Assembly (NCBI GenBank): GCA_023140215.1
Contig: JAGLMC010000019.1
Coordinates: 1-35,879 of the forward strand
Direction of reading: 5' to 3'
DNA from: Alphaproteobacteria bacterium
GTDB lineage: Bacteria; Pseudomonadota; Alphaproteobacteria; Micavibrionales; Micavibrionaceae
DNA: 35,879 nt
Shown here piece after piece: positions 8,129 to 34,655 of the stretch (within the stretch, counting starts at the first letter, position 1; each line of letters starts with the position of its first letter). The translations under genes were made by a program, and so were the position numbers. The notes below the pieces were generated by a model. The model saw nothing but the letters and a program-made list of their open reading frames with translations. It searched no databases and was not told the DNA's origin.

Positions 8129-8195
8129 ATTATAGTTATTTAAAAGACTTAAGGGCTTGCTTTTTTTTGTTTGTAATGGCTTTGTATCAGGCATT

Positions 8196-9185
8196 ATGAC
8201 ACGAATTATAAGCGTTAATGATGAAGCTATTAAAGAAGCCGTCCAAATTTTAAAAGATGGTGGTTTAGTGGCTATGCCTACTGAGACTGTCTATGGATTG
8301 GGTGCGAATGCGTTGGATGGAAAAGCCGTTGCTAGAATTTTTGAAGCTAAGGGGCGACCTTCGTTTAATCCCTTGATTGCTCATTTTTATTCTTATGTGC
8401 AGGCTGAAGAGTTTGCTGTATTTAATGAGCAAGCTAAAATCATTGCTCATCATTTATGGCCGGGGCCATTAACGCTTATTTTACCGCGCAAAAAAGATAC
8501 AGGTCTCTCGGAGCTTGCAACAGCCGGTTTGGAGACTTTGGCTGTGCGCGTTCCTAACCATCCGGTAGCGTTGGCTTTGTTAAAAGAGGTTGGTGTACCT
8601 ATAGTTGCGCCGAGTGCTAACAGGTCAGGGAGTCTTAGTCCTACAAGTCCCGCTCATGTTGCTGATAGTCTTGGTGATAAAGTTGATATAATTCTGGCAG
8701 CAGGTTCATGTTCGGTTGGGCTTGAATCTACGGTTTTGGATTTATCTGGAGAGCAGCCTTGTATTTTGCGCCCCGGTGCGATTATTGCCGAGGATATTCA
8801 GCGTGTTTTAGGTGTTCCTGTTTCTTATGATTATGGTGAGAGTTCTACACCAAAATCACCGGGGATGTTATTAAAACATTATGCGCCGGATACTCCTGTG
8901 CGTCTTAATGCTACTGATTTAGGAGTTGGGGAAGCACTTCTGGCATTTGGTTTGTGTAAATTTATTGGTGTTGAAAGTGGTGGTTTTGCTAGTGATTTGC
9001 CTGATACAATGCTTAGGAATTTGAGTGAAGAGGGTGATTTACATGCTGCCGCGTCGAATTTGTTTGCTATGCTTAAGGATCTGGATCAACCGGAACATAA
9101 ATCTATAGCTGTGATGTCTGTGCCGGAAACAGGACTTGGCGTTGCGATTAATGATCGCTTGCGCAGGGCAGCTTCTCAAGGGTAG
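8196..9185 (+). CDS. Threonylcarbamoyl-AMP synthase, Sua5/YwlC type
   Basis: This enzyme makes threonylcarbamoyl-AMP from threonine, bicarbonate and ATP, the first step of t6A37 tRNA modification. The chosen ATG (8196) gives 329 aa. A TTG at 8157 would add 13 hydrophobic residues outside the family, so it is not preferred. The N-terminal YrdC/TsaC domain shows PTETVYGLG at 28-36, KGRPSFNPL at 52-60, LAVRVPNHP, and APSANRSGSLSPTSP. The linker KSPGMLLKHYAPDTPV and the following domain mark the longer Sua5 architecture rather than the short TsaC. The stop is 9 bp upstream of the epimerase start, so the two genes may be cotranscribed. Confidence 0.93.
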   Translation: MTRIISVNDEAIKEAVQILKDGGLVAMPTETVYGLGANALDGKAVARIFEAKGRPSFNPLIAHFYSYVQAEEFAVFNEQAKIIAHHLWPGPLTLILPRKKDTGLSELATAGLETLAVRVPNHPVALALLKEVGVPIVAPSANRSGSLSPTSPAHVADSLGDKVDIILAAGSCSVGLESTVLDLSGEQPCILRPGAIIAEDIQRVLGVPVSYDYGESSTPKSPGMLLKHYAPDTPVRLNATDLGVGEALLAFGLCKFIGVESGGFASDLPDTMLRNLSEEGDLHAAASNLFAMLKDLDQPEHKSIAVMSVPETGLGVAINDRLRRAASQG

Positions 9186-9194
9186 AACAATGAT

Positions 9195-10202
9195 ATGAAG
9201 AAAATACTTGTTACAGGCGTGGCTGGATTTATTGGTTTTCATTATGCCAAAAGATTGTGTGAGGCTGGATACACGGTGCTTGGTATTGATAATCTGAATG
9301 ATTATTATGATGTTTCACTCAAAGAAGTGCGTTTAAAAATACTTGAGCCTTTTGATAATTTTGAATTTGAAAAGCTGGATATTGCTGATCGAACCGGCAT
9401 GGAAAAGCTTTTTATGAGTTATAACCCTGATGTGATAGCACATATCGCTGCGCAGGCCGGTGTGCGCTATTCTATTGATAATCCGCATATTTATGTTGAT
9501 AGTAATTTACAGGGGTTTCTGAATGTACTTGAAGGCGCTCGCCAAACAAGAGCAGGGCATTTGATTTTTGCATCAAGCAGTTCTGTTTATGGCGCTAATA
9601 CGGTTGTGCCGTTTTCAGAGAAACACAATGTAGATCATCCGATTAGCCTTTATGCCGCTACTAAAAAATCTAATGAATTAATGGCGCATAGTTACGCCCA
9701 TCTTTATGGTTTGCCTTGTACCGGTTTGCGATTTTTTACTGTATATGGGGCTTGGGGACGGCCGGATATGGCAGTTTATAAGTTTACCAAAGCTATCTAT
9801 GAAGGACGTAGTATAGATGTTTATAATAATGGAGATATGTTGCGTGACTTTACCTATATTGACGATATCATTGAAGCAATGATGCGTTTGGTGGATAAAA
9901 TTCCCGATTTGGATAGTGAAAGTAAAGCACCATATAAAATCTATAATATTGGAAATAACAGACCTGAGAAGCTTATAGACCTTATTAAATTTATTGAGGC
10001 TGAAACAGGGATAAAGGCCAAGAAAAATATGATGGAGATTCAGCTTGGTGATGTTTATTCGACATATGCTGATATTGATGCTTTATCTGATGCGATTGAT
10101 TTCAAGCCATCTACTTTGCTTAAAGATGGAATTCACAAGTTTGTAGAGTGGTATAAGGATTTTTATCAAATTGATTTAGAGGTAAAATCAAAAATTACAT
10201 AA
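9195..10202 (+). CDS. NAD-dependent epimerase, probable UDP-glucuronate 4-epimerase
   Basis: This 335-aa extended short-chain dehydrogenase probably interconverts UDP-glucuronate and UDP-galacturonate for surface polysaccharide. The Rossmann motif TGVAGFIG (7-14) binds NAD; the serines at 127-130 with SSVYG and the pair Y153/K157 in YAATKK are catalytic. The stretches DNLNDYYDV, HIAAQAGVRYSI and GRPDMA are typical of the CapI/LspL/GAE subgroup and distinguish it from GalE. A closely related UDP-sugar substrate cannot be excluded. It follows the Sua5-type gene by 9 bp and is followed by a 175-bp hairpin-rich gap before gmd, so it may end a transcript there. Confidence 0.88.
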   Translation: MKKILVTGVAGFIGFHYAKRLCEAGYTVLGIDNLNDYYDVSLKEVRLKILEPFDNFEFEKLDIADRTGMEKLFMSYNPDVIAHIAAQAGVRYSIDNPHIYVDSNLQGFLNVLEGARQTRAGHLIFASSSSVYGANTVVPFSEKHNVDHPISLYAATKKSNELMAHSYAHLYGLPCTGLRFFTVYGAWGRPDMAVYKFTKAIYEGRSIDVYNNGDMLRDFTYIDDIIEAMMRLVDKIPDLDSESKAPYKIYNIGNNRPEKLIDLIKFIEAETGIKAKKNMMEIQLGDVYSTYADIDALSDAIDFKPSTLLKDGIHKFVEWYKDFYQIDLEVKSKIT

Positions 10203-10337: not shown

Positions 10338-10392
10338 GCATAGACTATAGAAAAATTTTGCATTTAGTAATGAAGTCGTGCAATTTGCCGTT

Positions 10393-11433
10393 ATGACTTC
10401 AAAAATAGCATTTATTACAGGCATAACCGGACAGGATGGTGCATTTTTAGCTTCATTCTTGTTGGATAAGGGCTATGAAGTTCATGGACTTGTGCGTTGG
10501 GATTGTGTGGATACATGCACACGTCTTGAAGGTCTTGATATACAGCTTTATTTTGGAGATATGATTGATGCTAATAATCTGAACTTTCTTATTAAAACAA
10601 TCAATCCGGATGAAATTTATAATTTAGCTGCGCTTAGTCATGTAAAAGTTAGCTTTGAAACTCCTTCTTCTATGTTTGATATAAATACAAAGGGCGTTTT
10701 AAATATTTTAGATTCTGTGCGTGTTTTGGGATTGGAGCGTAGTGTTCGTATTTATCAAGCATCCAGCTCTGAGATGTTTGGTGTTTCTCCTGCTCCGCAA
10801 AATGAAGAAACTCCGTTTGCGCCGTGTAGCCCTTATGGTGTAGCCAAGCTTGCAGCTTATTGGTTGGCTAGAACATACCGTGATTCATATTGTCTGTATG
10901 TATCAAACGGGATTTTGTTTAATCATGAAAGCTCATTGCGTGGTGAGGATTTTGTAACACGTAAAATCACTCAGGCCGTAGCTGCTATAGAAGCGGGGCA
11001 GCAGGATATGCTGACGCTTGGTAATTTGGATTCTGTGCGTGATTGGGGGCATGCGCGTGATTATGTTGTCGGGATGTGGTTAATGTTACAGCAAGATGAG
11101 CCTGATGATTATGTCCTTGCTACCGGACAGGCACATACTGTGAGGGAGTTTGTAGAACGCGCTTTTGCCCATATTGGTATTGAGATTTTATGGAAAGGTG
11201 TTGGCGTTAATGAAGTAGGTGTTAATGTTAAAACCGGCAAAATATTAATTAATATTGATTCTAAGCTTTTTCGTCCCAAGGATGTGAATTATTTACTCGG
11301 TGATGCATCAAAGGCCAAAGAAAAGCTTGGTTGGCAGCCGGAAATATATTTCGATGAGTTGATTAGTGATATGGTTAATGCAGATCGCCGATCTTTTTTG
11401 GATGGTTGGGAATCATGGCAAAAGGCTGGTTAG
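10393..11433 (+). CDS. gmd: GDP-mannose 4,6-dehydratase
   Basis: Gmd converts GDP-D-mannose to GDP-4-keto-6-deoxymannose, the first step to GDP-L-fucose and related deoxysugars. With the ATG at 10393 the protein is 346 aa; a GTG at 10378 would add five residues, and neither start has a strong Shine-Dalgarno. Cofactor motif GITGQDG is at 10-16. The catalytic group comprises S124-S126, E127 in QASSSEMFG, and Y148/K152 in SPYGVAK. FNHESSLRGEDFVTRK, LGNLDSVRDWGHARDYV and the C-terminal RPKDVNYLLGD are characteristic of Gmd. It overlaps the next gene by 19 bp, so the two are almost certainly cotranscribed. Confidence 0.96.
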   Translation: MTSKIAFITGITGQDGAFLASFLLDKGYEVHGLVRWDCVDTCTRLEGLDIQLYFGDMIDANNLNFLIKTINPDEIYNLAALSHVKVSFETPSSMFDINTKGVLNILDSVRVLGLERSVRIYQASSSEMFGVSPAPQNEETPFAPCSPYGVAKLAAYWLARTYRDSYCLYVSNGILFNHESSLRGEDFVTRKITQAVAAIEAGQQDMLTLGNLDSVRDWGHARDYVVGMWLMLQQDEPDDYVLATGQAHTVREFVERAFAHIGIEILWKGVGVNEVGVNVKTGKILINIDSKLFRPKDVNYLLGDASKAKEKLGWQPEIYFDELISDMVNADRRSFLDGWESWQKAG

Positions 11434-12356
11434 ACACGCTATTTTCTCTTGAAGGTAAGAAAATCTGGGTAGCCGGTCATAATGGTATGGTCGGAGCAGC
11501 TTTGTTACGGCGTTTGAGTTTTGAGCATTGTGAGGTGTTAATTGCTCCTCGCGGTGAGCTTGATTTGCGCAATCAGGTGGATACTTATGACTGGATTTCG
11601 CAGTACAAGCCCGATGTTATTATTATAGCAGCAGCAAAAGTTGGTGGTATTTTGGCTAATGATACTTATCCGGCAGATTTTCTTTATGATAATTTAATGA
11701 TCCAGAATAATATTATTCATGCTGCGCATAAGCTGTGTGTGGAAAAACTTCTCTTTTTAGGTTCATCGTGCATTTATCCGAAAGATGCTGAAAATCCTAT
11801 TACTGAGGATGCATTGTTAACTGGAGCATTAGAGCCAACAAATGAAGCATATGCGATTGCAAAGATTTCCGGAGTTAAGCTTTGCCAAGCCTATCGTCAG
11901 CAGCATGGTTGTGATTTTATATCTTCGATGCCATGTAATCTTTACGGGGTTGGTGATAGTTTTGATGCACATAACTCGCATGTTATTCCGGCACTTATGA
12001 TGAAAGCACATATAGCAAAGTGTAATAACGCTGCGGAGATGATTGTATGGGGGAGTGGTGCTGCCCGTCGTGAGTTTTTGTATGTTGATGATTTGGCTGA
12101 TGCATTGGTGTTTTTGTTGAAAAATTATAGTGATATGAAGCCAATAAATGTTGGCTCCGGTGAAGATATTACTATTGCTGACTTAGCGCATCTTATTGCT
12201 GAATGTACCGGATTTACCGGAGAGTTGGTTTTTGATGAATCAAAACCGGATGGAGTGGCGCAAAAATTAATGAATTCTTCTCGTATTTTTAATGCCGGTT
12301 GGATGCCTTCTACAACGCTTTTTGATGGGCTTATTAAAACATATGAATGTATATAG
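11415..12356 (+). CDS. fcl: GDP-L-fucose synthase (3,5-epimerase/4-reductase)
   Basis: This enzyme epimerizes and reduces the Gmd product to GDP-L-fucose with NADPH. The 313-aa protein has the NADP motif GHNGMVG at 21-27, the SSCIYP segment (S117, S118, C119) supplying active-site Ser and Cys, Y146/K150 in YAIAK, and PCNLYG plus an HNSHVIPALM segment, all typical of WcaG/Fcl. It starts within the end of gmd (19-bp overlap), forming the standard two-gene GDP-fucose module. Together with the epimerase upstream it points to a fucose- and uronate-containing envelope polysaccharide. No glycosyltransferase or transport genes lie directly beside the pair. Confidence 0.96.
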   Translation: MAKGWLDTLFSLEGKKIWVAGHNGMVGAALLRRLSFEHCEVLIAPRGELDLRNQVDTYDWISQYKPDVIIIAAAKVGGILANDTYPADFLYDNLMIQNNIIHAAHKLCVEKLLFLGSSCIYPKDAENPITEDALLTGALEPTNEAYAIAKISGVKLCQAYRQQHGCDFISSMPCNLYGVGDSFDAHNSHVIPALMMKAHIAKCNNAAEMIVWGSGAARREFLYVDDLADALVFLLKNYSDMKPINVGSGEDITIADLAHLIAECTGFTGELVFDESKPDGVAQKLMNSSRIFNAGWMPSTTLFDGLIKTYECI

Positions 12357-12568: not shown

Positions 12569-13225
12569 ATGAGTGAAGATAATTCATATACCGAAAATCA
12601 AGAGTCTGATGTTGATGATAAGTCCTTGAAGAAAGAGCGTCGTGATAGTGATCGTCATGATGATTATTTTAATAGTAAGTTTTCAGAACGTCCTGTTTAT
12701 TTAGAGCCGGGTCAAATTATTTTTAGTGATAAAAATGATGAAATGTTAATTGCTGTAGTTGGTTCCGGTGTTGTGGTGTCAATTTATGATCAGCATTTAA
12801 AGATTGGGGTTTTGGGTTACGTTCTTTTACCGGATGAGATTTTAGCGGCATTTCCACATTTTGAAGAAGTTGACCAATCGCTTATGGATAATGCTTTTAA
12901 ACCTATCAATGAGTGTATTCATGAGATGAAACGTAATGGTGCCGGTAAGAACCGTATTTTAATTCGTTTGATGGGTGGCTCTAATATACCTAGTGATGAA
13001 ATGGATGCCGGTACTAAAAATTATGTGTTTGTTCATGAATATTTAGTTGGTAAGGGGCTTAAAATTTCAAATCAGGATCTTGGTGGTTCTTATGTCCGCC
13101 GTGTTCACTTTTTTCCGACAAGAGGGCATGTTGTTCGTAGTTTGCTTCGTCGGGATTCTGATTTTAAGACTGTTGAATTGCTTGAGAATGAATACTTAAA
13201 AGAATTTCCGTCTAAAGAATCTTGA
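12569..13225 (+). CDS. CheD-family protein lacking the catalytic triad (putative pseudoenzyme)
   Basis: CheD proteins deamidate glutamines in chemoreceptors using a Cys-His-Thr triad and can bind CheC. This 218-aa protein has a charged, probably disordered N-terminus (1-40) and then a full-length CheD-like fold. EPGQIIFSDKNDEMLIAVVG leads into GSGVVVSIYD where CheD has GSCVAV; KIGVLGYVLLPD replaces the KxGxxxHxxLPD segment; RLMGGSNI, GTKNYVFVHEYL and DLGGSYVRRVHFFP match the rest. By alignment to recalled CheD sequences, the catalytic Cys is G67, the His is Y84 and the Thr is I61, so deamidase activity is not expected. No methyl-accepting, cheA, cheC or flagellar gene is in the window. A scaffold or binding role is inference. 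Confidence 0.8.
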   Translation: MSEDNSYTENQESDVDDKSLKKERRDSDRHDDYFNSKFSERPVYLEPGQIIFSDKNDEMLIAVVGSGVVVSIYDQHLKIGVLGYVLLPDEILAAFPHFEEVDQSLMDNAFKPINECIHEMKRNGAGKNRILIRLMGGSNIPSDEMDAGTKNYVFVHEYLVGKGLKISNQDLGGSYVRRVHFFPTRGHVVRSLLRRDSDFKTVELLENEYLKEFPSKES

Positions 13226-13255: not shown

Positions 13256-14026
13256 TTAAAAGTTACGGAATTCTATTGAAAATCCTTTAGGTTGCGGTAG
13301 CTGGGATATATCCAGAATACGTTCCTGAGGAGGTAAGATTTCCAATGTAGGGCTATCGTTATTATTTTGGAAATTCTGAACGTAATATGTTCCAATGTAA
13401 TTTTTAGATGAAAGATCATTTATGATCGCGGTAATATCCTGTTCGTTTAAAAGGCTGGTATGAACTGTAGTGCGAATTTCAAATTGAACTGTGTTTTGTT
13501 TACATAAAATTGATAATGTTTCTAGAAAAGTTTCAAATTTTTGAAAGCCGGTAATTCTTTTAAATTTTTCCGGAGGAGCTTTGTAATCCAGAGCAATATA
13601 ATCCAGATATCCGTGTTCCAGAAAATTCTTCACAAGATCAGGACGTGTGCCATTGGTATCAAGCTTGATTGCATATCCCATTTCTTTGACTTTGCGAACA
13701 AAATCAGGAAGACCCGGATAGATTGAGGCTTCTCCTCCGGATAGAACGACACCGTCAAGCAAGCTTTTTCGTTTTTCTAGAAAGTTAAGTACGTCATCAA
13801 TTTTTGTATTTCCTTTACCTTTTACAATTTCCGGATTGTGACAATAAGGACAGCGCATATTGCATCCGGAAAACCATATTATTGCGGCACATTTGTCTGG
13901 AAAATCCAGCATAGTAAATGGTGTAAGGTCATAGATTGGAAGTACTGCTTCTTTAGTTTTCCTTGTATTCGGAGCCTCCCTTATATTTGGAGGATAGCTT
14001 TGAAGAGCAGTGGCATTATTTGACAT
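13256..14026 (-). CDS. nrdG: Anaerobic ribonucleotide reductase activating protein (radical SAM)
   Basis: NrdG uses S-adenosylmethionine and a [4Fe-4S] cluster to create the glycyl radical on NrdD. The 256-aa protein has C55-x3-C59-x2-C62 in CNMRCPYC and the SAM-binding GGE in VVLSGGEASIYPGL (about 93-106). It is longer than the approximately 155-aa enterobacterial NrdG and belongs to the longer type seen in many bacteria. The start overlaps the nrdD stop by one base (TAATG), so translation is coupled. It converges with the CheD-like gene, 30 bp apart. Confidence 0.94.
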   Translation of the reverse strand: MSNNATALQSYPPNIREAPNTRKTKEAVLPIYDLTPFTMLDFPDKCAAIIWFSGCNMRCPYCHNPEIVKGKGNTKIDDVLNFLEKRKSLLDGVVLSGGEASIYPGLPDFVRKVKEMGYAIKLDTNGTRPDLVKNFLEHGYLDYIALDYKAPPEKFKRITGFQKFETFLETLSILCKQNTVQFEIRTTVHTSLLNEQDITAIINDLSSKNYIGTYYVQNFQNNNDSPTLEILPPQERILDISQLPQPKGFSIEFRNF

Positions 14027-24015: not shown

Positions 24016-25563
24016 TCATTTCACATCCTCAGTTAAGAAAAATGCTTTTTCCAACTCTTTATACACATGGCCTGCAATAGAGGGAAGTACGTCAAAGGGA
24101 ACAGAGGGAACAGAGGAAACAAAGCAATCTATACCAGAGGGGTCTACGTTAGACATTATAAAATTTTGAAATATTTCGAATATTTTTTCTATATAATTAT
24201 GTCGTTTTTCGTTTGCTATTGTGTCTTGGTTACGGAGGTTATTGTTACTCGCTTCATTCATTTTTTTTATCACCGCATTATGTTCTTTTTTTAGATCGTC
24301 CCATGTTTCATTTGTCAGAAACATGGCATGTAAAAGTGGCTTGAGTTTGTCCCAATTTTCGAATTTTATTTGTGTATATTCTTCTTTAGGAATTTTACTT
24401 CCTATTTTTTCTAATAAAGGCTCACAAGATATTTCTCCCAGACAATATGCTCTGAGTTCATTGATTGGAATTACGTGTCTCATGACTGAGAGAAACCCTA
24501 GCATATAACTAAATGGGAGATGTTTTGCTGGGATAGACCGGACATATAAATTTATATCAGTAAAAATCTGTGTAATTTGGCGCAGGCTTAGATTATAAGT
24601 ATTTGCAAGCATACCTATCATTTTCGTGAGATTACCTCTCCCTGTAATAACGTTTACATCCTCTGTAAATTTTCCAGTTTCTTCCAAGTTGAACGAATTA
24701 AACATAAATTCTGCATATTTATATGCTGATGGTTTGGGCAAATTTAATTGCCAGTCTATAAATTTTCTCAGATATCCTTCTCCCGTGTCTTTCAGGCCAT
24801 ACACGGAAGATACCGTACTTCTAAGCTGTTCGACATCAACAGCCAGAATAAATACCAGCCCTTCCACATTAAAGAGATGTTTTATACATTCCAGTATTTC
24901 AATAGCGTATGTAGGACGGCAACGATCAAGCTCATCAACAAAGATGATTAGCTTTTTCTTATCTTTGTTATCTGTGTCTTGTGTAAGTTCGATAACAAGT
25001 TCTTTCAGAAACTCTCGAAAACCTTTTATAGATTTCTGTATATCTTCATGACGTGAAAGGGTGTCCCCGGCAAAATCACCAATGAGAGATGTTAGTTCAT
25101 TATCAATATTGTCAGGCAGGTCGACTATATCCTCAACTGCCTTTGAGCCAATAAGCGCACGAAACAAAATTTTGGCAACAACCGGCAATGTCCTCCTGTT
25201 TATATATGGCTTTGCTTTAGCAAACAATTCATCCAGTTTTTTTGTCTTCTCATTGTCATTATCTAAGTTGATTTGATCTTTGATAGAACTAATGAATGCA
25301 ATCAGAGCATCTTCGGCATAATCGGTCTTCCACGCATTAAAGTAGATTGCCTTATATCCATCATCTTCCAACTGTTTTTGCCAGTTTTTGATAAAGAATG
25401 ATTTTCCTGTTCCATACGGTGCATTCAGAGAGATTACGAATGGTTTCCGAATACTACCAATAATTGGAGTAAGGTAATCAGCGACAGTCTGCCGATCCAG
25501 TTTATCTTCCTCCCAAGGAGTTTTGCATTCGGTGAAAGCGTCTTTTTTTGTCAGTAATTCCAT
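24016..25563 (-). CDS. KAP-family P-loop NTPase
   Basis: This 515-aa protein belongs to the KAP group of STAND-like P-loop NTPases. Walker A is APYGTGKS at 48-55. Walker B is LIIFVDELDRC, with DELDR at 210-214, followed by AIEILECIKHLFNVEGLVFILAVD, the typical KAP stretch (sensor 1 region). No transmembrane segments are inserted, so it is a soluble form. The remaining C-terminal half (about 270-515) is helical and I do not recognize it. Bacterial KAP proteins are linked to plasmid and phage interactions (for example PifA), so defence is a reasonable hypothesis, not shown. It lies between an att-like repeat and a tRNA-Val 3' end, on the minus strand. Confidence 0.88.
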   Translation of the reverse strand: MELLTKKDAFTECKTPWEEDKLDRQTVADYLTPIIGSIRKPFVISLNAPYGTGKSFFIKNWQKQLEDDGYKAIYFNAWKTDYAEDALIAFISSIKDQINLDNDNEKTKKLDELFAKAKPYINRRTLPVVAKILFRALIGSKAVEDIVDLPDNIDNELTSLIGDFAGDTLSRHEDIQKSIKGFREFLKELVIELTQDTDNKDKKKLIIFVDELDRCRPTYAIEILECIKHLFNVEGLVFILAVDVEQLRSTVSSVYGLKDTGEGYLRKFIDWQLNLPKPSAYKYAEFMFNSFNLEETGKFTEDVNVITGRGNLTKMIGMLANTYNLSLRQITQIFTDINLYVRSIPAKHLPFSYMLGFLSVMRHVIPINELRAYCLGEISCEPLLEKIGSKIPKEEYTQIKFENWDKLKPLLHAMFLTNETWDDLKKEHNAVIKKMNEASNNNLRNQDTIANEKRHNYIEKIFEIFQNFIMSNVDPSGIDCFVSSVPSVPFDVLPSIAGHVYKELEKAFFLTEDVK

Positions 25564-27461: not shown

Positions 27462-28817
27462 ATGATGAGCATAATGATTCGTAGGTTTTTGTATATAATT
27501 TTTGTTTTGTTTTTGAATGTTTTGCTTTCTGGCGAATCTGCGGCTCAGGATTGTGTACCTCGTTATCAACTCATTCTTGAAATGCGGGAGGCTAGAATTG
27601 GCTCTTATAGCGTGTGGAATACGGTTTATGGAGAGAAGGATTATGATGAGCGTTTTGTAGCGGCTCTTCCTGTCGGTCAGGAAGGACATCATATAGTTGC
27701 CGGTGAGCGTCGTTCGCTTAATGCTAGTGTTAGAGCTAATGATATTGATGTTTTGCTTGTTAGATTTGATTATCGAGGTCGGATGAAATGGGAGCAGGTA
27801 CATAAAATTAAGGGGTTGTATGAAATTATAACGCTGATGAAGCATTCTGGTGGATATATGATTGTAGGCAATAAAGCATTACAGCGTGAGCTTGGAAGCA
27901 TATGGATTGGTTTTTTTGATGATGAAGGCCGGTTTTTAAAATCTAGAGAAATTAAGAATAGTAAGGGGCATATCTCCGGTAATGATTTATTAAAAGTCAA
28001 GGATGGTGGCGGTTATGAGCTGGTGGCTTCTTTTGAAGACAAGCTTGGTATAATTCAAAAACACGCTGTTCTTTATAGTATTGATAAAAATGGGCGCGTT
28101 GTTTCTGATCGTTCTTATATGTCGGGGCTGGAAAATGGTATTTTAGGGCTGGAGCATGCGGAGGGGATTGGATATATAGCTAGCGGGTATATATATGATG
28201 ATAGCGGTCGAAAGACCGGCTGGGCTTTAGGACTTGATAAGGATGGTGGCATTTTATGGCAACGTCAATATCCGCGTGGTTATGGTGCTCAAATTGAAGT
28301 TGCAAAATCTTATGGGAAAGATTATCTGGTAGTTGCCGGTAATGCAGAGCCTTTTGGTGAAGGGCAGATGGCCGGTTGGGTAATGTTATTAAATGCTGGA
28401 GATGGAAGCGTTGTCTGGCAGCGTTATTACAGGGGAGAAAATCATTATTATGGTCGTGATTTACTCGTTGGTGATGATGGATTAATTTCTGTTATGCTCG
28501 ATGGGAAAATGGTTTCTGATTTGAAAAATACAGATAATTTAGAGAAACATTCTGATTATGTTCGGCTTTTGACTTTAAATCCTCGTGGAGAGTTACTTTT
28601 TGGTGATGCTTATTTTAACGGGCAGGGGGCTGATGCATATCAAATGTTATTTGGGAGTGGAGGTCAGCGTATTATGGTTGGGTCTACAAGAATATCTTAT
28701 CAGATTGAGGGCGTTGATGGTGCTGAGCCGGTTGTTAAAACCAGTATGGATGGTTGGGTTGTGTCTGCTGTTAGTGCAGAAGTTTATGATGATCCATGTA
28801 AGGCACAGGTAAGATGA
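27462..28817 (+). CDS. Secreted beta-propeller-like protein of unknown function
   Basis: The 451-aa protein has a signal peptide (IMIRRFLYIIFVLFLNVLL core, SAA|QD cleavage near 28). The mature part carries about six repeats of an aromatic-Asp-Gly pattern ending in W/Y: FDYRGRMKWEQ, FDDEGRFLKSRE, IDKNGRVVSDRSY, LDKDGGILWQRQY, LNAGDGSVVWQRYY and LNPRGELLFGDAY. This suggests a six-bladed propeller-like fold. The only mature cysteines noted at the ends, C31 and C446, could join the two termini. ATG at 27465 and 27474 are alternative starts. It overlaps rluD by four bases (ATGA). I do not recognize a named family, and no enzymatic motif is evident. Confidence 0.8.
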   Translation: MMSIMIRRFLYIIFVLFLNVLLSGESAAQDCVPRYQLILEMREARIGSYSVWNTVYGEKDYDERFVAALPVGQEGHHIVAGERRSLNASVRANDIDVLLVRFDYRGRMKWEQVHKIKGLYEIITLMKHSGGYMIVGNKALQRELGSIWIGFFDDEGRFLKSREIKNSKGHISGNDLLKVKDGGGYELVASFEDKLGIIQKHAVLYSIDKNGRVVSDRSYMSGLENGILGLEHAEGIGYIASGYIYDDSGRKTGWALGLDKDGGILWQRQYPRGYGAQIEVAKSYGKDYLVVAGNAEPFGEGQMAGWVMLLNAGDGSVVWQRYYRGENHYYGRDLLVGDDGLISVMLDGKMVSDLKNTDNLEKHSDYVRLLTLNPRGELLFGDAYFNGQGADAYQMLFGSGGQRIMVGSTRISYQIEGVDGAEPVVKTSMDGWVVSAVSAEVYDDPCKAQVR

Positions 28818-29825: not shown

Positions 29826-29858
29826 GGAAACACATTGATTTAATGTGTTCCGGTTTTT
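29826..29858 (+). terminator. Rho-independent terminator of rluD
   Basis: The arms 29826-29836 and 29842-29851 (AACACATT/AATGTGTT core plus GGA/TCC with one bulged A) are followed by GG and TTTTT (29854-29858). It overlaps the end of the convergent yjbH-like gene. Confidence 0.75.
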
Positions 29859-31969
29859 CAGAAAATAATATTATCCCAATATTTCACCATATGTTCATAA
29901 GAGAATCCTTGTGTGAGTTCATATAGCGGTAATGGAGTATTTAAGCTTTGAGCTGTATCTCGGCCAAATGGGGATGTTTTTATGTTTATATGTGTATTAT
30001 TGGGCATATATTTAAAGCCTCCTAAAGGCAGGCTTAGTTGCATTCCGTGGTAGGCATGCGTTGTTCCTCCGAACAGGTCAAAATCCGCATTATCCGTGAT
30101 GGTTACAAAGCTTTTCAGGTTTGCTCCATTTTTGAATTGTTTATTTAGGGAGAGTGTTCCTCCGATATCTTCGGCTAGATATCTTCCGAAACGTGCTTGA
30201 AGCGTTAGGTCATGCTTTGGAATGTTGTACCAGCCGTTTATGTGTCCGGTTAAAAGATGATCTCCGTTAAATCCTAAATTTAGAGCTGTAGATGGGTCAC
30301 GTTTAAAGGCAAGCCAGCTTTCAGCCCCAATTGCAAACCGTGATCTAAATGGGCGGTAGAGGATTTCGCCTCCATATCCGCCATACATTTCTTCCAGATA
30401 ACCGCCTGTTATTGCTATATGAAGGTCTTCGTTAATGCTGTGTGTAAATGTAGTGTATAGCGTATCAAGTGCAAGTGTTCGTTTGGCAAACCGGTCTACA
30501 TTACTTCGTATTGGTAAAAGTGCGGTTGGGCGTATGTTGTTAATGTTGTGTAAATTGTCTTTGATGTTCAGGCGAAAAGCGTATCCGCTATCTAAAAGAC
30601 CAAAGAATTTAGGCCCTCTTAATCCTGCTATTAGTGATGTACGGTATAGTGTTGCGCTATCTTCTTCAGCCAGACTGAATTCATTATCGAGAGCTATGTT
30701 TGCGTCAATAATTCCATGTTGCGTTTTTATAAGGCGGGAAGGGCGTTTCAGTATTTTTTTGTTAAATGTTCCAAATTCAGTATGTTGCCAGATTTCTTCA
30801 GGGCTGCCTTGATGGTGCGTGATGGCTTGTTCAAAGTCGCGTCTCATAAGACTTATGGAAGTTCCTTGTAGCCCCATAATGCTTGGAAGAAATGTTATTT
30901 CTTCAATTTCTGATCCGCTGTAGTTGGCTATATGTGGTAGCATTAGCCCGATTTGTTCCGGTGTTGAGCTGTTTGGTCGTAGTGTTAGTTGTGCCTGAGC
31001 TTTGAGTTGATTTGTTTGTATATCGTGAATCTCCAGTCCTTCACGCTCCGCTGATAGTTTTATATTTACCGGTGAGCTAGCCTTTATTCTATAGGGGCGC
31101 ATATGGATTGGTTTTTTGTTTTGCGCTGATTGGTCACGCCATTTGTTTAGAGAATTTTTCAGTGATAAGCGTCCCATGAGCTTATCTGTTCCTTGCATGG
31201 CGATGCTTAGATTAGACCAGTTTGTTGGCTGGTAGGTAATTCCGGCACTCCATGGGTCTGGTGCATTGTAATTAAGCGCTGTTTTTTCAGCTTTGTAGCG
31301 ATCAGCACCATAATCCAGTTTTATAGACAAGCCTTTTATTGGAGTAAAATATTCTACTCCGGCAAAAATTCCAATTTTTTCACCGGTGAACCAGTTTGCA
31401 GGCTCGTTTGGCATTTCTCCATCTAAAGAACGGTTTTTACCAAAATGCTTTAGTATGCTTTTGAGAGGGTTGTTAAAGTGTTCGGCACTTCCTAAGCGTC
31501 CCCATCCTAAACCGGCTGTAAAGTCAAAATTGTTATGTTGTTTGGAAATAGCTATATATTCACCGGCCATGCGTTTATGTCCAATTGCAGATTGTAAACC
31601 GATAGAAAGTTCCGGTTGAATATGATTTTCTTTAAGTAAGCGAAGTTTTATATCTACTCCCGGATAGAGGTGTTTAGCATCTTTATTTATATTGGAGATT
31701 TCAGCGCTTTGGCGGATATTTATATGAAGATGGTCTGTGAGCTGGATACCTGCAAAGCTGTGAATATACGGATCTAGTGTGCTTACGCCGATTTTGATTG
31801 TTCCGGTTTTATCCATTCTAGCGCTTGGAATGACGTTAAGCCCTATTTGTCCATACAGCATTGAGGAGTGTTTTGAGTTGTTTGCGTATGTTGTATTGCA
31901 GAACGCAAAGAGTAAGATTATGTAAAGTATTGGGTGTTTAATCCAAATTATTATATGAGCGTAGAGCAT
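29858..31969 (-). CDS. YjbH-family outer-membrane beta-barrel protein
   Basis: YjbH proteins are predicted outer-membrane barrels associated with exopolysaccharide or capsule export. The 703-aa protein starts with a signal peptide (hydrophobic 13-24, TYA|NN near 29). C24 is not in a good lipobox. YGQIGLNVIPSARMDKTGT is the family N-terminal signature, and DPWSAGITYQPTNWSNLSIA matches the middle; alternating polar and hydrophobic strands with aromatic ends continue to the C-terminus (YDNIIF-like end). No yjbE/F/G homologues are adjacent. The gene is convergent with rluD and divergent from cckA. It may serve the polysaccharide made with the nucleotide sugars encoded at 9-12 kb, but this is inference. 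Confidence 0.85.
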   Translation of the reverse strand: MLYAHIIIWIKHPILYIILLFAFCNTTYANNSKHSSMLYGQIGLNVIPSARMDKTGTIKIGVSTLDPYIHSFAGIQLTDHLHINIRQSAEISNINKDAKHLYPGVDIKLRLLKENHIQPELSIGLQSAIGHKRMAGEYIAISKQHNNFDFTAGLGWGRLGSAEHFNNPLKSILKHFGKNRSLDGEMPNEPANWFTGEKIGIFAGVEYFTPIKGLSIKLDYGADRYKAEKTALNYNAPDPWSAGITYQPTNWSNLSIAMQGTDKLMGRLSLKNSLNKWRDQSAQNKKPIHMRPYRIKASSPVNIKLSAEREGLEIHDIQTNQLKAQAQLTLRPNSSTPEQIGLMLPHIANYSGSEIEEITFLPSIMGLQGTSISLMRRDFEQAITHHQGSPEEIWQHTEFGTFNKKILKRPSRLIKTQHGIIDANIALDNEFSLAEEDSATLYRTSLIAGLRGPKFFGLLDSGYAFRLNIKDNLHNINNIRPTALLPIRSNVDRFAKRTLALDTLYTTFTHSINEDLHIAITGGYLEEMYGGYGGEILYRPFRSRFAIGAESWLAFKRDPSTALNLGFNGDHLLTGHINGWYNIPKHDLTLQARFGRYLAEDIGGTLSLNKQFKNGANLKSFVTITDNADFDLFGGTTHAYHGMQLSLPLGGFKYMPNNTHINIKTSPFGRDTAQSLNTPLPLYELTQGFSYEHMVKYWDNIIF

Positions 31970-32144: not shown

Positions 32145-34256
32145 GTGAGGGAATTTTTTATAATGCCTGTTTTGCTGTTTCCAACGTTTGTTATTTTTAT
32201 ATTGGCTGTTTTTATATTCATTTTATTTTGGAAAATGAGATGTCTTAAAGAGAGTACGTTGGTGTTTGAGGATTCTATTGATGCGCTTTCCTATGGTCTT
32301 GTCTTTTTTAATATAGATGAAAAGTTTTGTATGGCTAATAAGTGTGCTTGTCGATATTTGCCTTTTATCTCTGAAGATACGGCTATGTCGGATAATTCTT
32401 TTAAAACTCTAAATGATTTTTTTGGTTATATGTTTGATCATGCTGTTGAGTGCGATAAAGGATTGAAAAGGATTCTTGATAAATCATTTGGGCATATGGG
32501 AGAAGAAGGTTTCAGAGAGGTTATTGAGTGTTCTAATGGTATGTTATGTCTTGCCGATGTGCGAAAGACTATTGTTGGACGAAAGGTTATTATTCTTCGT
32601 GATTTAAGTGAATTTAAAAAAGATGAAGATAATTTTATACAGCTTCACCAGCATAATTTTGAACTTACTGAAGCTGTTGAGGCTGCGACAAATGGTATTT
32701 TAATTGCTATAGGAGAGGAAAAGCTTGGTTATAGGATTGCTTTTGTGAACAATGCTTTTTGTGAACATGCTTTTTTGCTTAAAAAGGAAATTGTCGGTTC
32801 TGATGTTCAGGAATTACTTTACGGTTTTGTCGGAGATAATAATAAAGCTCTTGTTATAGATTCATTTGAGAATGTTAAGTCTGTTGATTTTGAAATTCAA
32901 ACGGAATATGAGCAGAAAAAACGGTGGTTTAATTTTAAGCTAACTCCTGTGATTAATAATATTGGTTATCCGGGATTGTTTATTGGGGTTAGTACCGAGA
33001 CAACAGAGCTAAAATTGCGTGAGGCTGAATTTTTTCAGGCGCAAAAGCTTGATGCTCTTGGAAAACTGGCGGCCGGTGTTGCTCATGACTTTAATAATGT
33101 ACTTTCGATTATTGATGGTTATTCGCATATTGCCATTAATTTGCTTGAAGATGGGGATACAACGAAAGATTATTTAGAGAAAATTCGTACAGCTTCAGCG
33201 CGTGGTGCTGCTTTAACACAGAAAATGTTGACGTTTAGTCGTCATAAGATTGTTGTCGAGAATGTTATTGATTTGTCGAGTACAATCAGTATGCAGGAAA
33301 TATTATTGCAGCCTTTAATTGATGCATCGGTCAATATGTCTTTTTATACATATGATAAGGATCTTTTTGTCGAGTGTACGGCAGACAGTATTATACAGGT
33401 GGTGATGAATCTTGTTGTGAATGCCAGAGATGCTATGCCGGATGGCGGTGATTTACAGGTTGAGGCGCGTAAGGTTGAGCGGTGTGCGGTTTCTTCTGAA
33501 GTTCAAAAAGAAATGTGTGATGATGTTTTTGTTTGTTTGTCTATATCTGACACAGGGCATGGAATAAAGAACGCTACGTTGGAGCGTATGTTTGATCCGT
33601 TTTTTACAACAAAGGATCAAGGTAAGGGTGCCGGACTTGGTTTATCTATGGTTTACGGTCTTGTTAAACAAATGGGCGGTTGCATTGATGTTAAAACAAA
33701 ATTGAATCAGGGAACCACTTTTTTTGTGTATTTGCCTGTTAGTGATAAGAAGCCGCAAAAAGTTATAGCTGGAAATGTGCAAGATATTAGTAGTTTGAGC
33801 CTTAAGGGTTATACGGTGCTTGTTGTAGAGGATGAGCCGGAATTGCTGAATATTGTTGCAAATTTGCTTGAGAAGCTTGATATGAATGTCTTAACAGCCT
33901 CTAACGGTAATGAGGCATTGTTGAAGCAGGATAATTACACAGGTGATATTGATTTATTGCTTACAGATGTTGTGATGCCTGAACTAGATGGTATTAAGTT
34001 GGCCGAGCTTTTGACATCTCTCCGGACGGAAACAAAAACTATATTTATGAGCGGATATCCTGCTGATGGGCGTTTGGCTTGTATTGATCTTCCTGAAAAA
34101 GCTTTGTTTGTTGCAAAGCCAATAAATTATGAATCTTTGGCAAGAATTGTTTTTAAAACTGTTTCAGACACAATGGAATTACAGAATGGCGATCTTTTTG
34201 AAACAACGCCGCATTGGGAGTCATCAGATATTATTCAGGAATCAAGCGAGGTTTAA
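32145..34256 (+). CDS. cckA: Hybrid histidine kinase CckA
   Basis: CckA starts the phosphorelay that goes through ChpT to CtrA and CpdR and controls cell cycle, motility or envelope genes in alphaproteobacteria. The 703-aa protein has one N-terminal membrane segment (about 8-29), two PAS-like regions (about 40-165 and 170-290), HisKA with H314 in GVAHDFNNVLSIIDGY, an ATPase domain (NLVVNARDAMPDGG; DTGHGI; FDPFFTTK; GKGAGLGLS), and a C-terminal receiver with D608 in LLLTDVVMPELDG. The GTG start is supported by GAGGTG five bases before it; an ATG six codons later is possible. Caulobacter CckA has two membrane passes; only one is evident here. It is followed after 3 bp by a receiver gene. Confidence 0.94.
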   Translation: MREFFIMPVLLFPTFVIFILAVFIFILFWKMRCLKESTLVFEDSIDALSYGLVFFNIDEKFCMANKCACRYLPFISEDTAMSDNSFKTLNDFFGYMFDHAVECDKGLKRILDKSFGHMGEEGFREVIECSNGMLCLADVRKTIVGRKVIILRDLSEFKKDEDNFIQLHQHNFELTEAVEAATNGILIAIGEEKLGYRIAFVNNAFCEHAFLLKKEIVGSDVQELLYGFVGDNNKALVIDSFENVKSVDFEIQTEYEQKKRWFNFKLTPVINNIGYPGLFIGVSTETTELKLREAEFFQAQKLDALGKLAAGVAHDFNNVLSIIDGYSHIAINLLEDGDTTKDYLEKIRTASARGAALTQKMLTFSRHKIVVENVIDLSSTISMQEILLQPLIDASVNMSFYTYDKDLFVECTADSIIQVVMNLVVNARDAMPDGGDLQVEARKVERCAVSSEVQKEMCDDVFVCLSISDTGHGIKNATLERMFDPFFTTKDQGKGAGLGLSMVYGLVKQMGGCIDVKTKLNQGTTFFVYLPVSDKKPQKVIAGNVQDISSLSLKGYTVLVVEDEPELLNIVANLLEKLDMNVLTASNGNEALLKQDNYTGDIDLLLTDVVMPELDGIKLAELLTSLRTETKTIFMSGYPADGRLACIDLPEKALFVAKPINYESLARIVFKTVSDTMELQNGDLFETTPHWESSDIIQESSEV

Positions 34257-34259
34257 ATT

Positions 34260-34655
34260 ATGTCAATTGTTTTATCAGATTTAAAAATATTGTTGGTTGA
34301 GGATCAGTCGGAAGCTAGGGCGATGATGCGTAATATGCTTATGGAGATGGGAATAAGTCAGGTTTTTGAAGCTCCGGACGGTAGGAAAGCTTTGAGCTTT
34401 ATTGATGCTGCTTTTGATTTTGTTGATCTTATTATTTGTGATTGGAATATGCCTGAAATGAACGGTGTTGAGTTTTTAAGGCAGCTTAGAACTGTCGATC
34501 AGGATATGCCGTTTTTAATGGTGACAGGTCGCAGTGATATGGATTCTGTGGTTGAGGCTAAATCTTCCGGTGTTACCGGTTATATCCGGAAACCGTTTTC
34601 TCCTGCTCAGTTTGAAGCGAAGGTGCGGATTATCTTGCAAAAAGTTGCCGCTTGA
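34260..34655 (+). CDS. CheY-like single-domain response regulator
   Basis: A 131-aa receiver without an output domain. It has the acidic pocket VEDQ, phospho-acceptor D61 in IICDWNMPEMNG, the switch Thr in VTGRS, and Tyr and Lys in GYIRKPF, so it should be phosphorylatable. It begins 3 bp after cckA, with GAGG in the end of that gene, and is surely cotranscribed with it. A partner relationship with CckA or ChpT is plausible, but a chemotaxis CheY cannot be excluded by sequence because the residues are similar. Confidence 0.9.
   Translation: MSIVLSDLKILLVEDQSEARAMMRNMLMEMGISQVFEAPDGRKALSFIDAAFDFVDLIICDWNMPEMNGVEFLRQLRTVDQDMPFLMVTGRSDMDSVVEAKSSGVTGYIRKPFSPAQFEAKVRIILQKVAA

Follow-up and report, generated by a model that had tools for sequence, protein, structure and literature searches.

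CheD proteins are commonly annotated on sight as chemoreceptor deamidases. A gene on a Micavibrionaceae contig (JAGLMC010000019.1, assembly GCA_023140215.1) raises the question of what such a protein may be doing once the residues of its deamidase site have been replaced and no chemotaxis locus surrounds it. We analysed the gene within the whole stretch of 35,879 nucleotides in which it lies, hereafter the window, and compared it across a family sample of 104 genomes. Public contigs share their CheD sequence with 12 of the genomes that carry this form of the gene: two bear the label Micavibrio sp. (UBA7657, UBA2638), a name that NCBI files under Bdellovibrionota, and the others come from alphaproteobacterial MAGs. 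Micavibrio aeruginosavorus is reported to be an epibiotic predator that expresses chemotaxis genes in its attack phase (PMC3189940), and in Caulobacter crescentus a transposon insertion in canonical cheD is reported among hyperadhesive mutants (PMC11481889).

The CheD fold

The gene occupies 12569..13225 on the plus strand, beginning with ATG and encoding 218 amino acids, with a stop codon that ends at 13225; promoter-like sites near it number 5 against 5.2 expected. Its product matches the Pfam CheD model PF03975 at 53.5 bits (cut-off 25, E 3.1e-14), the best stretch being residues 112-189 only, and it matches nine NCBIfam CheD models, the best at 88.1 bits over residues 24-198, with all nine matches falling under equivalog cut-offs of 223 or more. 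The sole significant PDB sequence match found by phmmer is T. maritima CheD (2f9z_C, E 6.9e-08, residues 58-187). All 12 members of set A1 match CheD models, and an AlphaFold2 model built from 12 family members reached a mean pLDDT of 86.4 and a pTM of 0.83. When Foldseek was run with this model 2f9z_C was ranked top (E 2.6e-12), and VIA-align superposed 145 residues on it at 2.7 Å and Z 16.9, followed by NTAN1 (Z 11.8) and then YfiH/YlmD proteins (Z ~9). Together the Pfam, NCBIfam and PDB sequence matches, the model and the two structural comparisons make the fold secure, and the window protein is a member of the CheD family by sequence and fold, as a preliminary description made from the sequence had proposed. 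Residues 1-22 (12569..12634, plus strand) form a charged, poorly conserved N-terminal tail that is predicted to be disordered (pLDDT < 50), and residues 1-31 hold 11 D/E and 6 K/R. The 40-residue charged extension described earlier is a fair account when the comparison is with short CheD of the T. maritima type, but not with the long proteobacterial type (PRK13487), where the match starts at residue 24.

Replacement of the catalytic residues

The CheD triad is given as Cys27, His44 and Thr21 (PMC7022378), and in the phmmer alignment with T. maritima CheD these positions fall on G67, Y84 and A62 of the window protein. We compared them with 101 canonical rows, made up of 33 and 68 from two sets whose species may overlap, and with the 21 family sequences that share the glycine. 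At the nucleophile site (Gly67 codon, 12767..12769, plus strand) Cys is present in 101/101 canonical rows and Gly in all 21 members of the clade. At the histidine site (Tyr84 codon, 12818..12820, plus strand) His is likewise universal among the canonical rows, and the clade has Tyr in 13, His in 4, Cys in 2, Phe in 1 and Asn in 1, a replacement in 17/21. The threonine site (Ala62 codon, 12752..12754, plus strand), again Thr in 101/101 canonical rows, is Ala in 14, Gly in 4, Ser in 2 and Thr in 1 of the clade and so is replaced in 20/21; the one sequence that keeps Thr (L057) has Asn at its His site. On the alignment shared with the clade, canonical rows have Cys and His in 33/33. As four members retain His and one retains Thr, loss of the site is graded outside the Cys. 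The preliminary description was thus right that all three residues are replaced and right about G67 and Y84, and its placing of the threonine at I61 was one residue off; whether the substitutions are conserved within a clade, a question it had raised, is answered by these counts. Because the nucleophile is missing, the clade protein is very probably non-catalytic as a cysteine deamidase.

The changes extend well past the triad. Residues C71, G81, N83, R107, G109, L116, N118 and E162 are invariant in 101/101 canonical rows and each is found in <30% of the clade; at position 162 the canonical Glu has become Lys in 19/21. Gains include Arg25 (21/21), Phe95 (21/21), Pro96 (19), Pro112 (18), Lys121 (18), Arg133 (19) and Lys150 (20), and the clade-specific Phe95-Pro96 pair together with inserted residues 98-101 spans 12851..12871 on the plus strand, the inserted residues being gaps in 95, 101, 101 and 96 of the 101 canonical rows. 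At no position does Cys, Ser, Thr or His reach at least 85% of the clade, which argues against a replacement chemistry; Cys116 occurs in 11/21. The polar residues invariant in the clade are R25, R177, R195, D198 and E206, of which R177 and E206 are common to canonical CheD.

A single clade under purifying selection

The Gly-for-Cys form was found in 21 of the 104 family genomes, about a fifth, and the clade profile matches 24/104. An order-wide search likewise matched 24 of 142 genomes, all within one family, and a single-protein search of genome contigs found no relative. Canonical CheD is present in 4/104 family genomes (G084, G083, G032 and G019) as five genes, L063-L067, two of them in G019. 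The preliminary description had asked about a canonical CheD beside the variant: the window's genome (1.71 Mb, 97% complete) gave no match to any other CheD, and among the 21 carriers G019 has both forms. In a maximum-likelihood tree of 54 rows, rooted at the midpoint, the 21 Gly-form rows make up one side of a branch supported at 100/100, and the family's five canonical CheDs fall across it. No second origin of dead CheDs was seen in a sample of 28 class-level loci (those with a locus given; 11 further class-level rows had none), 68 of 80 named loci (80 of 118 named relatives) and 24 phylum-level loci (a minority of the phylum rows), all of which have Cys and His; the remaining 12 of the 80 named loci are identical in CheD sequence to 12 of the 21 clade members. 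A natural clade of dead CheDs was likewise not found in open-licence titles and the starts of abstracts, where absence proves little.

It is worth considering whether these genes are simply decaying, a reading that has the patchy presence of the gene (21/104 family genomes) in its favour and that is contradicted by the sequences themselves. Internal stops are found in 0/21, the fold is predicted at pLDDT 86, and dN/dS for five pairs from three genera is 0.12, 0.20, 0.10, 0.08 and 0.11, a sixth pair being saturated in dS. With values of 0.08-0.20 the clade gene is not decaying, and decay, to which we assign next to no probability, was rejected on the open frames and dN/dS. The clade is under purifying selection, and on that ground its protein is, with a high degree of confidence, functional. 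The variant is a pseudoenzyme clade within the known CheD family; the earlier suggestion of a conserved-fold pseudoenzyme is upheld by a glycine fixed at the Cys site, by selection and by finding no second CheD in the window's genome.

Genomic neighbourhood

In the window the gene closes a run of plus-strand genes: an L-threonylcarbamoyladenylate synthase (Sua5; 8157..9185, TIGR00057 198 bits) and an NAD-dependent sugar epimerase/dehydratase (9195..10202, PF01370), both placed by synteny in the conserved neighbourhood, a GDP-mannose 4,6-dehydratase (10378..11433, TIGR01472 463.8 bits, cut-off 415) and, directly upstream across a 212-bp gap, a GDP-L-fucose synthase-like reductase (11406..12356, NF047922 468 bits, below the cut-off of 500). 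Downstream and convergent lies an anaerobic RNR activase gene, NrdG (13256..14026, minus strand, TIGR02495 211 bits). Outside the window, neighbours were named by sequence reading and BLAST, except for the family-searched L064 and the genes of G036 and G101. On this footing the gene directly upstream shares the strand of the clade gene in 21/21 carriers (Fcl 11, ManC 5, FA-hydroxylase 4, unassigned 1), and in all 21 at least one of the two upstream genes comes from the Sua5/epimerase/FA-hydroxylase/GMD/Fcl/ManC run, ManC being part of it in some carriers only. Downstream, 16/21 fetched stretches have an amidinotransferase-like (ctlX) or M3-peptidase gene, the window, L046, L051, L061 and L062 being without either. 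Non-carriers such as G001 (L176, same genus), G010, G086 and G118 (L177, L186 and L192) show the gene run closed up without the clade gene. One ancestral gain at this locus, followed by repeated loss, would be the simplest reading.

The company of GDP-sugar genes makes it natural to ask whether the clade protein acts with the adjacent dehydratase and reductase genes to control polysaccharide synthesis; the preliminary description had mentioned a possible polysaccharide-control partner. A GDP-sugar gene of Fcl or ManC type is directly upstream on the same strand in 16/21 carriers, at <140 bp in 15 of these 16, and a YjbH-type exopolysaccharide gene also lies within the window. However, gmd scores above cut-off in 14/21 carriers against 71/83 non-carriers, a weak inverse trend (p 0.06); of the seven carriers that do not reach the cut-off, two (G019 and G073) have a near-full or split GMD. 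In four carriers an FA-hydroxylase gene precedes the clade gene with no GDP-sugar gene between or beside them, and at 20 chosen gmd loci of non-carriers gmd and the reductase gene are present without the clade gene. Since gmd is no commoner in carriers, the neighbourhood is better seen as a shared position than as a shared function, and the suggested polysaccharide role, which we judge very unlikely, is not supported.

Several other features of the window were recorded. The YjbH-type exopolysaccharide protein is encoded at 29858-31969 on the minus strand (PF06082, 378 bits), and after it, on the opposite strand, come a hybrid histidine kinase (32145-34256) and a lone receiver (34260-34655). 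A KAP-family P-loop NTPase at 24016-25563 (minus strand) scores 355.8 bits against PDC-S20, a candidate defence model of PADLOC, and a 451-aa ORF at 27462-28817 (plus strand), adjoining a pseudouridine synthase gene, has no Pfam match at E 0.01.

Chemotaxis genes and CheC

Among the 26 ORFs scanned with Pfam, of the window's 46 ORFs of at least 80 aa, none matched CheA, CheW, CheR, CheB or MCP, and the nearest receiver domain in the window is 12.6 kb downstream of the gene; for those 26 ORFs the earlier statement that it has no chemotaxis neighbours holds. The clade gene was inside a che operon in none of the 21 stretches. Genes related to the che genes around L063-L067 occur in 2/20 other carrier stretches (G036 and G101), non-adjacent in both. 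In G036 (L046, contig 64) cheR is 5.6 kb and cheB 6.5 kb upstream on the same strand, the order being cheB/cheR, purH, the FA-hydroxylase/GMD/Fcl/ManC genes and then the clade gene, and the contig also carries cheA and cheW; in G101 an MCP gene lies ~3.4 kb from the clade gene. In the fetched stretches of carriers other than G036 neither cheB nor cheR was seen. By protein clustering, the family's canonical CheDs have che genes around them, and for L064 (G083) Pfam gives a receiver, CheA, CheW, MCP, CheR, CheB and a second MCP, a full che operon. The four of 104 genomes that have canonical CheD (G084, G083, G032 and G019) also have an extra, higher-scoring CheA.

Across the family CheA (H-kinase_dim) was found in 76/104 genomes, 16/21 carriers against 60/83 others (Fisher p 0.79). 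CheA, MCP and CheW are all matched in 16/21 carriers, the window's genome included, where there are two MCPs, one CheA and CheW matches. In the same five carriers (G023, G029, G085, G119 and G120; 94-100% complete) none of CheA, MCP and CheW was matched, though a gene missing from a MAG may represent an assembly gap. These five genomes suggest that some branches of the group have lost chemotaxis. Where the clade gene persists without detectable receptors, kinase or coupling protein it is unlikely to depend on them, and on the strength of these five carriers we think it likely that the role of the clade protein lies outside chemotaxis.

A CheC-like partner had also been proposed. CheC (PF04509) was found in 1/104 family genomes (G118, a non-carrier) and in 0/21 carriers, the controls for this search, B. 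subtilis and T. maritima, both being positive. B. subtilis CheD is reported to bind CheC through a Met-Phe pair, M101 and F102 (PMC3513319), and in the phmmer alignment the T. maritima pair falls on Ile140 and a gap in the window protein. With CheC all but absent from the family and the pair missing, a CheC partner is unsupported, and CheC was rejected as a candidate.

Discussion

We consider it probable that the gene encodes a CheD paralogue whose deamidase site was lost in an ancestor of the clade and which has persisted as a non-enzymatic protein, redirected to a partner other than a chemoreceptor. Under this proposal the loss of the site would have come in that ancestor and the paralogue would have been retained without its chemistry, catalysis being dropped and a binding role kept. 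The altered pocket and surface, with the insert at 95-101, the change of Glu162 to Lys and the further Arg/Lys gains, may then have turned the protein to its new partner. There is precedent for a non-enzymatic function of CheD in B. subtilis, where, as reported, binding to the receptor and to CheC outweighs deamidase activity for chemotaxis, CheD binding to receptors raises their activation of CheA, and a mutant with normal deamidase activity and poor binding has a defect equal to that of the null (PMC3513319); an older model held that CheD strengthens receptor-kinase coupling and credited this to deamidation (PMC340952). By analogy we infer that the clade protein works by binding, and the chance that what it binds is a protein helix seems to us about even.

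The same precedent may be turned to a different end, in that the protein could still belong to chemotaxis as a dead CheD that binds the few chemoreceptors present and tunes CheA without deamidation. The receptor, kinase and coupling genes of the window's genome, which gave no other CheD match, would fit such a role, as would the occurrence of CheA in 16/21 carriers and the position of cheB and cheR upstream of the clade gene in G036. It is nevertheless difficult to square with the five carriers that lack any match to CheA, MCP or CheW, with the absence of any association between the clade gene and CheA, with the loss as a set of the residues invariant in canonical CheD, and with a clade gene that stays outside che operons in every stretch when canonical L064 sits in a complete one; we regard this reading as unlikely. 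That the pocket has instead acquired a new chemistry or binds a small molecule would be in keeping with the versatility of the fold, given NTAN1 and YfiH/YlmD as structural neighbours, and some encouragement could be drawn from clade-specific residues at or close to fixation (R25, F95, K121, K150 and K162) and from Cys116 in about half of the rows. The clade, however, offers no broadly conserved Cys, Ser, Thr or His to carry such chemistry, and two of its five invariant polar residues are shared with canonical CheD, leaving this reading highly improbable. Seen as a whole, the clade would have left both catalysis and chemotaxis, and it is somewhat likelier than otherwise that it represents a pseudoenzyme of single origin in a predator-related lineage, vertically kept at one locus, where it serves on its own as an adaptor or regulator of some partner outside the chemoreceptors. 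A clade that retains the fold but not the nucleophile, and that survives in genomes where chemotaxis genes were looked for and not found, would be an example from nature of a CheD scaffold useful through binding alone. It would also draw attention to a possible regulator in a group that has been little studied and has epibiotic predators among its relatives, and automatic CheD annotation would be corrected.

Comparison with known systems

Set beside the enzymes of its fold class, the window model resembles NTAN1 and the YfiH-type proteins at the Z scores given above. Enzymes of the CheD/NTAN1/YfiH-type fold are reported to keep Cys and His strictly (PMC7022378), unlike the clade, in which the site has no Cys and His survives in 4/21. 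The likeness to the CheD deamidase itself (PF03975; PRK13487) is closer, encompassing the whole fold, a similar length and the structural residues G48, G124, G136, R177, P183 and G186. It departs from that enzyme in the replaced Cys, His and Thr, in eight further invariant residues that are mostly lost, in the extra insert and in window protein scores below every NCBIfam equivalog cut-off, as well as in a gene that lies outside che operons and occurs in five genomes with no match to CheA, MCP or CheW. From the CheC/CheD/CheYp system of B. subtilis the clade differs in having CheC in 0/21 carriers, no Met-Phe pair in the window protein and five carriers in which no core chemotaxis genes were found. 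What that system shares with our proposal is its precedent, a CheD in which, as reported, binding stands above enzyme activity (PMC3513319).
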